Assembly (NCBI GenBank): GCA_903861005.1 | Contig: CAIOSP010000206.1 | Span: forward strand, 1 to 34,762 | Source: an uncultured Pseudomonadota bacterium | Lineage (GTDB): Bacteria; Myxococcota_A; UBA796; GCA-2862545 | Length of the DNA: 34,762 bases | Reading direction: 5' to 3' | Part shown: piece after piece, positions 29,489-34,762 of the stretch | Layout of the letters: the number at the start of each line of letters is the position of its first letter | Numbering within the stretch: the stretch's first letter is position 1 | Made by a program: the position numbers and the translations under genes | The notes under the pieces: generated by a model | What the model saw: the letters and a program-made list of their open reading frames with translations, nothing else | Told to the model about the DNA's origin: nothing | The model's database searches: none

Positions 29489-30870
<1,382 letters not shown>

Positions 30871-30874
<4 letters not shown>

Positions 30875-31662
30875 CCGAGCGCGCCCCCGGCTTTGTGCTG
30901 CGCCGTGACGAGCCGATGGCCCGTCACTCGCCGTGGCGCGTGGGCGGGCCGGTGGACGCGTACATGGTGGTGACCCGCCGCGACGGCCTAGCCGACGCGC
31001 TGTCGGTGTGCCGCGAGCACCAGTGGAAGCGCAACGTGATCGGCGCGGGCACCCGCACGGTGTTCCGCGACGGTGGATCGGGCGGCGTGGTGCTGCGGCT
31101 GGGCTCCGCGTTCGCGGGTGTGACCGAGGTCGAGCAGGGGTGGTGGATTGGTGCCGCGGCCCCGCTCGCGCTGATCGGCGCGCGCTTCGTCGGCGGCGCG
31201 CCCAAGACCACGCTGTCGACGCTGCGCTTCGCCGCCGGATCCGTCGGCGCCTCGCTGGCGACCGACGAGGGCTGGGAGCCGTGGGTCGAGTCGGTGAAGT
31301 GGATCCAGCGGTCGCAGGAGCACACCTGCCCGCTGCATGAGGTGCCAGGGAAGGGGAGCGTGGTGTTCACCGAGGTGCTGATCCGTCGCACCCCGCGTGA
31401 GAAGGCGCGCCCGCCGGTGGTGCCACACGGCTGGTTCAAGGCCGAGGACGACGACGCCGCCGAGCTGCTGCGCGACACCGGGCTGTCCGCCACGCGCCTG
31501 CGGGGCGTCCTGCTGCCCTCGGCCGAGCCCGACCTGCTGGTCAACCTGGGCGACGGCAATGCGAAGGACTTCGCGCTGCTGCACAAGTCGATCGTCGAGA
31601 AGATCCAGGACAAGCGCGGCGTCTCGCTTCAAGACGCGATGACGTGGATCGGGAGGCCTTGA
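30871..31662 (+). CDS. MurB-like protein with degenerate active site
   Basis: 263 residues in the usual murB position, GTG start overlapping the murC stop. MurB reduces UDP-enolpyruvyl-GlcNAc to UDP-MurNAc using FAD and NADPH. The layout matches: SPWRVGGPVDAYMVV for the N-terminal (S/T)-x-(R/G)-x-GGPAD, VIGAGTRTVFRDGG for LGGGSN-LLV-x-DGG, FAAGSVGASL for the AGIPG-x-VGGA segment, and a C-terminal NLGDGNAKDFALLHKSIVEKI helix. Key residues are missing: the NAGAYG segment is deleted, GSxFKNP reads HGWFKAE (catalytic Ser lost), the closing LE-x-EV reads LQDAM (catalytic Glu to Ala), and no Arg fits the YR-x-S position. It is also shorter than typical MurB (about 300). Intact and overlapping both neighbours, so not an obvious pseudogene. 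A non-catalytic or altered role is inferred. Confidence 0.75.
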
Positions 31663-32570
31663 TGTCGTTTGCCAAGTCGGTGAAGGTGGGCGTGCTGCTC
31701 GGCGGCATGTCGTCGGAGCGGCCGATCTCGCTCAAGAGCGGGCACGCGGTCGCGGACGCGCTGCGCGAGCGCGGCTGGGACGTCGTGGAGATCGACGTCG
31801 GGCGTGACCTGGCCGAGCAGCTCCGCGCGCACAAGGTCGACGTCGCGTGGATCGCGCTGCACGGCCGGTTCGGCGAGGATGGCTGCGTGCAGGGCCTGCT
31901 AGAGGTCCTGGGTATCCCGTACACGGGGTCTGGCGTGCGCGCGAGCGCGGTCGCCATGGACAAGATCACCACCAAGCGGCTGATCGCGGGCAAGCCCGGC
32001 ATCCACCTGGCGGCGGACGCGGTGTCGGTCGCGGGCGATCCGCCGCCGCCGCTTCGCTTCCCGGTGATCTGCAAGCCTGCGACCGGTGGATCCACCGTGG
32101 GCACGCGCAAGGCCGCCGACGCGAGCGAGTGGGCGGACGCGCTGGCCGCCGCCGTGGCGGAGGGCGGCGAGGTGATCGTCGAGGAGGTGATCGTCGGCGA
32201 GGAGATCACCGTGGCCGTGCTCGACGGCGTGCCGCTGCCGGTGGTGCGCATCGTGCCGGACTCCGGCTTCTTCGACTTCGAGGCCAAGTACACCAAGGGC
32301 CTGACCCGCTACGAGGCGCCCGCCGCGCTCCCCGCCGCCGTGACCGAGGCCGCGCAGGCCGCCGCGGTGGTGGCGTACAAGGCGGTCGGCTGTCGAGGCC
32401 TCGCGCGCGCCGACTTCATCGTGGAGGCCGACGGCACGTCTGTCTTTCTGGAGATCAACACGATCCCCGGCATGACCGCGACCAGCCTGTCGCCCATGGC
32501 CGCCGGGTGCGTGGGCATTGACTTTCCGACCCTGGTCGAGCGCCTGTTGCAAGCAGCCCGTCTGGACTGA
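31662..32570 (+). CDS. ddl: D-alanine:D-alanine ligase
   Basis: A 302-residue ATP-grasp ligase producing D-Ala-D-Ala for MurF. Seen: VLLGGMSSERPISLKSG, ALHGRFGEDGCVQGLLE, GIPYTGSGVRASAVAMDK, the grasp motif KPATGGSTVGTRK, ARADFIVE and EINTIPGMTATSLSP. The frame opens at 31644, but the ATG at 31662 follows GGGAGG and overlaps the previous stop (TGATG). A promoter-like element lies in the 143-nt gap before ftsQ. Confidence 0.95.
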   Translation: MSFAKSVKVGVLLGGMSSERPISLKSGHAVADALRERGWDVVEIDVGRDLAEQLRAHKVDVAWIALHGRFGEDGCVQGLLEVLGIPYTGSGVRASAVAMDKITTKRLIAGKPGIHLAADAVSVAGDPPPPLRFPVICKPATGGSTVGTRKAADASEWADALAAAVAEGGEVIVEEVIVGEEITVAVLDGVPLPVVRIVPDSGFFDFEAKYTKGLTRYEAPAALPAAVTEAAQAAAVVAYKAVGCRGLARADFIVEADGTSVFLEINTIPGMTATSLSPMAAGCVGIDFPTLVERLLQAARLD

Positions 32571-32713: not shown

Positions 32714-33589
32714 ATGAACCGCGTTCGTTCCATCCTGCTCGCGTTGGCTGCTGTCCCGGCGATCATCCTCGTGATCGTCCGGCCGGATCAGTTCTACGTG
32801 GAGCGCGTGGACTTCGTCGGCAACCACCACGCCACCAACGCCGAGCTGCGCCACCTGTCGGACCTGCGCAACGGCACCAGCCTGTGGGGCGCGGATCTGG
32901 CGGCGGTGTCGGCGGGCGTGCAGCGTCACCCTTGGGTCCAGTCGGTTGAGGTCGAGCGCCGCCTCCCCAACCGCATCGTCGTCACCGTGCACGAGCACGA
33001 GCCGGTCGCGCTGCTCGCGTTCACGGACGGCCTGTACTACGTCGACCAGGAGGGCACGCCCTTCCTGCGCGCCACGTCGGAAGACCTGGACCACCCGCTG
33101 ATCACGGGCGTGGACGCGACGCTCGAGAAGTCGCACCCGGCGCTGCCGCGGCTGGCCATCCGCGACGCCCTGTGGATCCTAACCGAGCTCGACAGCCATC
33201 AGGTCATCCCGCTCAGCCAAGTGTCTGAGATCCGCTTCGAGCGCACCCGCGGCTGGACCATCCAGACGTCGGGCGGCACCGCCAAGCACCCCACGGCCGA
33301 GGTCCTGTTCGGCTTTGGCGACTACGACCAGCAGATCGCGCGCCTGGCGGCCCTCATCGGGCGCGGCGTCGACCTGACCCAGCCGCTCCACGTGGACGTC
33401 GCGCCTGAGCGCGTCGCCATCGTCCGTCCGCTGGGCGCGCCCGACGCGCCCGTGCTCGCGGTGGATCCGCTGCTCGCCCAGGCCGAGGCGCTCGCCGCCC
33501 CGGTGGACGACGCCGCGGTGGACGCCAACGCCTCTCACGTTGATCCCTCTGCGCCGGTGGACCCTCCGCCGAGCGCTCCTCATCCTTGA
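32714..33589 (+). CDS. ftsQ: cell-division protein FtsQ
   Basis: A 291-residue bitopic protein. The short N-terminal tail and membrane span ([16 protein letters not shown]) lead into a POTRA domain beginning [20 protein letters not shown] and containing [26 protein letters not shown], then the FtsQ beta domain with [10 protein letters not shown]. FtsQ links FtsL/FtsB to the divisome. The frame opens at 32636, but the ATG at 32714 places the membrane span as expected; the ribosome-binding site is weak for every candidate. The last 40 or so residues are Ala/Pro/Asp-rich. ftsZ follows after 79 nt, where ftsA would be expected. Confidence 0.88.
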
Positions 33590-33668
33590 GTCGCGGCCTC
33601 CCAGGCTTCGCTCACCCCGCACGCCCGCCCCTCACTCTGCCCGCCATTTCCGCCCCCCGGAGGACTCC

Positions 33669-34762
33669 ATGATCGAGATCGTCGAAGAAGAAGCGCCCGT
33701 TGGTGCCCGCATCAAGGTCATCGGCGTCGGCGGTGGTGGCGGCAACGCCATCAACACGATGATCGCGGCTGGCCTCTCCGGCGTGGAGTTCATCGCGATG
33801 AACACCGACGCGCAGGATCTTCGTCGCAGCCTGGCACCCCGTCGCTTCCAGCTCGGCGCGCAGCTCACCAAGGGCCTCGGCGCCGGCGCCAACCCCGACG
33901 TCGGCCGCGAGGCCGCGCTCGAAGATCGCGACAGGATCGCGGAGCTGGTCGTGGGCGCGGACATGGTCTTCATCACGGCCGGCATGGGCGGCGGCACGGG
34001 CACCGGCGCGGCTCCGATCATCGCGCAGGTCGCGCGTGAGTGCGGCGCGCTCACCGTCGGCGTCGTCACCCGTCCGTTCGGCTTCGAGGGCGCCCGTCGC
34101 CGTCGTCAGGCCCAGTCCGGCATCGAGGCGCTCTCCGCCAACGTCGACACGCTGATCACCATCCCCAACCAGCGCCTGATCGCCATGTCCAACGACCGCA
34201 CCAGCATGAAGGACGCCTTCCGCATCGCGGACGAGGTCCTCCTGCAGGCGGTCAAGGGCGTCAGCGACCTGATCAACTACCAGGGCGAGGTCAACGTCGA
34301 CTTCGCCGACGTCCGCACCATCATGTCCGGCAAGGGCGTCGCGCTCATGGGCGTGGGCCACGCCAAGGGCACCCACAAGGCCGCCGAGGCCGCCCAGGTC
34401 GCCATCAGCTCGCCGCTGCTCGACGACATCTCCATGGTCGGCGCCACCAGCGTCCTGATCAACATCACCGGCGGCTCGGGCCTCACCCTGTACGAGGCGC
34501 ACGAGGCGCTCACGCTCATCCAGGAAGAGGCGCACGAGGACGCGCAGGTCATCTTCGGCTGGGTCGTCGACGAGACCCTGGGCGACGAGGTCCGCGTGAC
34601 CGTCATCGCCACGGGCTTCGAAGAGGCGCGCCAGGTGCAGACGGCGTCGATCGAGCGCGTGGTGAACGAGCGTGTGTTTCCGCGGGCGGCGGTTGGCGGG
34701 CGGCGGGGCCGGGAGCTGACGAGCGGGATTGATCGGATGCATGATGACTACGACATCCCCAC
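33669..34762 (+). CDS. ftsZ: cell-division GTPase FtsZ (partial, 3' end cut by window)
   Basis: 364 residues are present and the frame runs off the right edge. It polymerises into the cytokinetic ring. Seen: [17 protein letters not shown], the tubulin signature GMGGGTGTG (105-113), [15 protein letters not shown], the synergy-loop motif [11 protein letters not shown] and [12 protein letters not shown]. The GTPase core ends near residue 318 (ATGFE). An Arg-rich linker of only about 40 residues then leads to DDYDIP at the edge, which looks like the start of the conserved C-terminal peptide (D-x-IP-x-FLR). So only a few codons are probably missing. GGAGG precedes the ATG. Confidence 0.96.

Follow-up and report, generated by a model that had tools for sequence, protein, structure and literature searches.

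The dcw cluster in the window, the whole 34,762-nt stretch of DNA that was analysed, carries a gene (psi-murB) for a MurB homologue of 263 amino acids that lacks the catalytic set of the enzyme. We consider its product to be a MurB-derived pseudoenzyme that probably serves as a partner or regulator of the MurB–MurC step, and we give this reading a probability of about 0.6. The broader statement, that psi-MurB is not a MurB reductase and has been selected for a non-catalytic role, is strongly favoured by the sequence comparisons described below. MurB is usually regarded as a plain essential flavoenzyme. The order to which the window belongs appears to have moved the reaction to another gene and kept a dead dcw copy next to murC under strong selection. 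This arrangement points to another role for the MurB fold, separable from catalysis, and such a role in the Mur pathway thereby becomes directly testable. The non-catalytic job that psi-MurB would do in cell-wall precursor synthesis is probably undescribed; our search of the open-licence literature for MurB pseudoenzymes or paralogues returned nothing relevant, and a study in B. subtilis is said to have dealt with the position of murB in the dcw cluster.

On the forward strand, psi-murB runs from a GTG start codon at 30871 to a TGA stop codon ending at 31662 (30871..31662). The upstream gene, murC (29489..30874, forward strand), overlaps it by 4 nt at the sequence GTGA. Downstream, ddl, which encodes D-Ala-D-Ala ligase, occupies 31662..32570 of the same strand if translation begins at the ATG, giving a 1-nt overlap at TGATG, and an alternative in-frame GTG at 31644 would lengthen this overlap to 19 nt. 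The earlier note described an uninterrupted reading frame that overlaps its neighbours murC and ddl on either side, and this is accurate for the 263-amino-acid ORF. A sequencing error is an unlikely source of the unusual protein, because a second species of the genus encodes a product with 99% identity and 45 more distant full-length homologues carry the same losses. The organism itself is documented solely by metagenome assemblies.

Standard family models recognize psi-MurB only at their margins. It scores 28 bits against the Pfam MurB_C model, for which the cut-off is 27, and 25.9 bits against FAD_binding_4, slightly below the cut-off, and its best score of 80.5 bits does not reach the NCBIfam MurB equivalog cut-off of 259. 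A profile built from 30 psi-MurB orthologues matches MurB crystal structures with E-values of 2e-44 (4pyt) and 6e-32 (1hsk), and its comparison with a profile of catalytic MurBs by hhalign gives a probability of 100% and an E-value of 1.7e-45 over 266 aligned columns. The alignment extends across the FAD-binding and substrate domains, covering nearly the whole length of the protein. By these profile comparisons psi-MurB is a true homologue of MurB, and the MurB layout proposed in the earlier note is confirmed by the same matches. AlphaFold2 gave a mean pLDDT of 37 for the single sequence and 43 for a model made from a nine-row alignment with phage MurBs that was mis-registered in its middle part; the claims made here for psi-MurB rest on no structure model.

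Active-site positions were assigned by use of the profile–profile alignment and a 116-sequence alignment. Where catalytic MurBs carry the proton-donor Ser of GSxFKNP, codon 187 (31429..31431, forward strand) encodes Gly, and codon 256 (31636..31638, forward strand) encodes Ala in place of the catalytic Glu of LExEV. The Tyr-Arg pair of YRxS, whose Arg lies near the flavin, falls within a deletion in both alignments. All three catalytic losses that had been suspected from the sequence are thus seen at aligned positions. In addition, D132 replaces the Asn of the NAG motif, and the HAN motif is absent. The NAGAYG segment had been thought to be missing; it is instead present in degenerate form as codons 123–134 (GSVGASLATDEG; 31237..31272, forward strand), which are the counterpart of PGTxGGAxxMNAG, and a net loss of approximately 27 residues lies further on, where the spacing between the NAG and Ser columns has a median of 59 residues versus 86. 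What is left of the pyrophosphate loop for FAD, GxGSN, is seen in codons 58–62 (GAGTR; 31042..31056, forward strand), and PGxxGG reads GSVGA. The proposed degeneration of the first motif holds for its Asn, which has become R62, but not for its GxG part, which the window protein retains.

Of the characterized enzymes, psi-MurB most invites comparison with the type IIa MurBs (S. aureus 1HSK and 4PYT), to which it is homologous over its full length, without the insertions of type I, and its gene holds the dcw position that catalytic murB occupies in other families of the phylum. It differs from them in having no Tyr-Arg, Ser, Glu, NAG Asn or HAN motif, and it is about 40 residues shorter than the catalytic MurB that its own genome encodes elsewhere. 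Type IIb MurB (T. caldophilus 2GQT) has a Cys donor, whereas psi-MurB has neither Ser nor Cys at this position.

To establish how widely this gene occurs, we searched 58 relatives, the class, and 285 genomes of the phylum. All 34 genomes of the order with a completeness of 90% or more, drawn from six families, contain a degenerate dcw MurB. Wherever the flanks could be read, murC always lies upstream, and the downstream gene is ddl, or ftsQ where there is no ddl match; the latter arrangement was observed in G002, G047, G054 and G059. Among 47 full-length copies, Arg, Ser/Cys and Glu are all absent from 30, and no copy retains more than one of them at the aligned position. Retention is 0% for Tyr175, 2% for Arg176, 0% for Asn139, 6% for Glu294, 2% for His257 and 6% for Asn259, with Glu at the catalytic Glu position in three of the 47 orthologues and the YRxS Arg aligned in one. 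Positions of the fold are kept in the same copies (Gly34 and Gly130 100%, Gly299 96%, Gly288 98%, Leu291 85%). A Ser or Cys occurs near the old Ser column in 13 copies, never together with Arg or Glu, so the loss of that single residue is not universal. In the FAD loop, GxG persists in 17 of 20 copies from the window's family (f1) and is lost in families f2–f6, which makes FAD binding an unlikely candidate for the conserved function.

Purifying selection acts on the dead copy. Between two species of the genus, its dN/dS is 0.029, a value derived from about two amino acid changes; the corresponding ratios are 0.025 (MurC) and 0.136 (catalytic MurB). Eight other pairs give ratios from 0.049 to 0.218 for the dead copy, mostly a little higher than that of MurC. 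These ratios lead us to reject pseudogene decay. Selection had originally been suggested from the intact, overlapping frame, and the ratio within the genus now shows it; the gene has also been retained throughout the well-completed genomes of the order. Divergence is nevertheless fast, with identities of 25–45% across the order, and a small number of residues stand out. Within codons 14–23 (EPMARHSPWR; 30910..30939, forward strand), all 47 copies share E14, H19 and R23 without exception. R76, in codons 76–78 (RLG; 31096..31104, forward strand), is likewise found in 47 of 47 copies and in approximately 50% of catalytic MurBs. The same invariance holds for R209 in codons 209–211 (RLR; 31495..31503, forward strand), where R211 stands at a conserved Gly of the catalytic enzymes. 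G78 (98%), R244 (94%), P98 (91%) and P220 (83%) are also conserved. In catalytic MurBs most of these positions match at 0–80%, and most of the invariant residues are already frequent in the catalytic dcw MurBs of the phylum.

If psi-MurB does not catalyse the reductase reaction, the real MurB would be expected at another locus, as the earlier note predicted, and a search of the same genome recovered a complete MurB at contig 75:38893-39801 with the motifs YRHS, GSTFKNP and LEREV. This copy rules out the alternative of a genome without any working MurB. A catalytic MurB is present at another locus in 31 of the 34 well-completed genomes of the order. The search of these 34 genomes, each at least 90% complete, found none in G015, G048 and G061; the three misses are unremarkable at 91–94% completeness, and assembly gaps could, but need not, explain them. 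The second MurB is of type II in most genomes and of type I (SAGSFF) in G002, G005, G022 and G031; in two families of the order, such a type I MurB at another locus replaces the second type II MurB. Phylogenetic analysis prefers a separate origin for the second type II MurB and does not reject duplication within the order (AU p 0.13).

Neighbouring orders offer some indication of how this arrangement came about. Two genomes of the same class but of another order (G063 and G066) carry a single dcw MurB in which Cys takes the place of Ser, as in type IIb, and the NAG and YR motifs are intact. Type IIb MurBs use Cys as the proton donor (PMC3689657), and the sequence of this single dcw MurB fits that type. 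A Cys-type dcw MurB is probably close to what the ancestor of the class had. G064 and G065, which belong to the family of G063 and G066, and G062, from another family, combine a degenerate dcw copy with a type I MurB at a different locus. Catalytic loss in the dcw copy thus accompanies the presence of a second MurB, and it has probably occurred repeatedly; in a tree with long branches, all dead copies group together (99%). Beyond the class, most genomes of the phylum yield one MurB match, and Ser-type catalytic motifs were present in all 20 of the phylum sequences inspected. Some genomes leave no room for murB, with murC followed directly by ftsQ or ddl (G072, G107 and G150 of f15, G076 of f19, and G127 of f28); these genomes give either no MurB match or a weak best one, of the kind that type I copies give. 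The dcw murB is gone from the genomes sampled in f15, f19 and f28, and its retention in the window's order is therefore not automatic.

An inactivated active site, conservation and purifying selection together mark psi-MurB as a pseudoenzyme, and the suggestion in the earlier note of a retained pseudo-enzyme draws support from the loss of the catalytic set, the second MurB, selection and order-wide retention. We propose that psi-murB is the old dcw murB. A second MurB, mostly of type II and in some lineages of type I, would have taken over the reduction of UDP-GlcNAc-enolpyruvate, after which the dcw copy would have stopped catalysing and been retained for a non-catalytic job. We infer that psi-MurB folds as a shortened MurB and binds a cytoplasmic partner of the Mur pathway, most likely MurC, the product of the overlapping upstream gene. 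In this role it would steady or regulate the hand-over of UDP-MurNAc from MurB to MurC, much as CwlM acts on MurA. A partner in the MurB–MurC step is favoured because murC is the constant, overlapping neighbour, because ddl may be missing, and because Mur enzymes are thought to operate as complexes (PMC4929429). MurC is favoured over Ddl since psi-murB keeps its place beside murC even in clusters that show no ddl. The choice of MurC specifically is tentative and is drawn from gene order and overlap. It is conceivable, at somewhat below even odds, that psi-MurB represents a regulatory subunit of a new class in peptidoglycan precursor synthesis: a pseudoenzyme derived from MurB, present throughout the order and partnering MurC, which arose more than once in the class, each time in a genome with a second MurB.

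There are precedents for relatives of peptidoglycan enzymes with such functions. CwlM, a mycobacterial homologue of amidases, activates MurA in the cytoplasm, and its enzymatic function is not needed for this (PMC4946905). The likeness is that of a peptidoglycan-enzyme relative acting on a Mur enzyme, which for psi-MurB is a hypothesis by analogy; CwlM differs in belonging to an amidase family, in being controlled by a kinase, in having MurA as its target and in having been demonstrated experimentally. EnvC, which resembles peptidoglycan hydrolases but lacks their catalytic residues and serves as an activator of AmiA and AmiB (cited in PMC4946905), is likewise a degenerate peptidoglycan enzyme retained as a regulator, but it belongs to an unrelated family and acts on amidases rather than on a Mur enzyme.

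Other explanations account for parts of these data. The invariance of the charged residues E14, H19, R23, R76 and R209 over 47 divergent copies, and the GxG retained by most f1 copies including that of the window, could indicate a ligand-binding sensor, or an enzyme with new chemistry, that binds a nucleotide (FAD, NADPH or UDP-MurNAc) and uses a new Arg/His/Glu set. We regard this as unlikely, given that the GxG loop is gone in f2–f6, that the polar residues of the substrate domain are gone everywhere, and that the invariant residues are mostly common in catalytic dcw MurBs and so may be structural. The new-chemistry alternative raised in the earlier note appears less likely for the same reasons, namely loss of the FAD loop in five of six families and the prior frequency of the invariant residues in catalytic relatives. 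Far less probable still is a MurB that remains active with its catalytic residues relocated within the fold. Conserved Arg and His residues exist, and in some copies a Ser or Thr stands close to the former Ser column, but the Tyr-Arg region is deleted, the Glu is replaced, there is no conserved pair of Ser/Cys and Glu, and 31 of 34 genomes encode a catalytic MurB at another locus. With no conserved set of residues to be found, relocation was rejected.

A partner in the same cluster other than MurC, for example the catalytic MurB, MurA, MurG, FtsQ or FtsZ, also seems improbable. It would accord with the description of MreB and MurG as scaffolds for Mur ligases (PMC4929429) and with the apparent lack of ftsA in the order, which makes its division machinery unusual; against it, murC is the tight, overlapping neighbour, and G062, G064 and G065 have ftsA and yet carry a degenerate dcw MurB. 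The overlaps of 4 nt and 1 nt might also be taken to mean that psi-murB is a non-functional relic kept as a spacer gene through translational coupling to ddl. This is very unlikely, since dN/dS values of 0.03–0.22 and residues invariant over six families need selection at the protein level; moreover, the gene was simply lost in other lineages of the phylum, and it persists where no ddl match follows. A pseudoenzyme acting at the MurB–MurC step is thus the reading that we prefer, and with it comes a caution for annotation: a dcw 'murB' in these genomes should not be taken for the reductase, and any model that treats it as one will be wrong.

Several further observations were made in the course of these searches. 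ftsA is missing from the window cluster, where the gap between ftsQ and ftsZ spans 33589-33671. None of the 24 genomes of the order that were searched has an FtsA match above the TIGR01174 cut-off, the best being a weak actin-fold match of 65 bits, and ftsA is present in neighbouring orders at 433–464 bits (G062, G064, G065 and G066); the pattern suggests that ftsA was lost across the order. In G217, which belongs to another class, murC occurs with a Ser-type MurB at two separate loci; the genome may have a pair of incomplete dcw clusters, or the assembly may be mixed. A contig scan for psi-MurB homologues recovered the sister species only, plus one stretch that is not a usable homologue. Dead copies were absent from the phage MurBs found by a viral scan, which carry Ser/Glu-type motifs, and two further viral scans produced no matches. 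Viral contigs (IMG/VR) do encode MurBs, several of them shorter than 270 amino acids and with Ser-type SAGxxF motifs, and some phages may therefore encode a MurB of their own.
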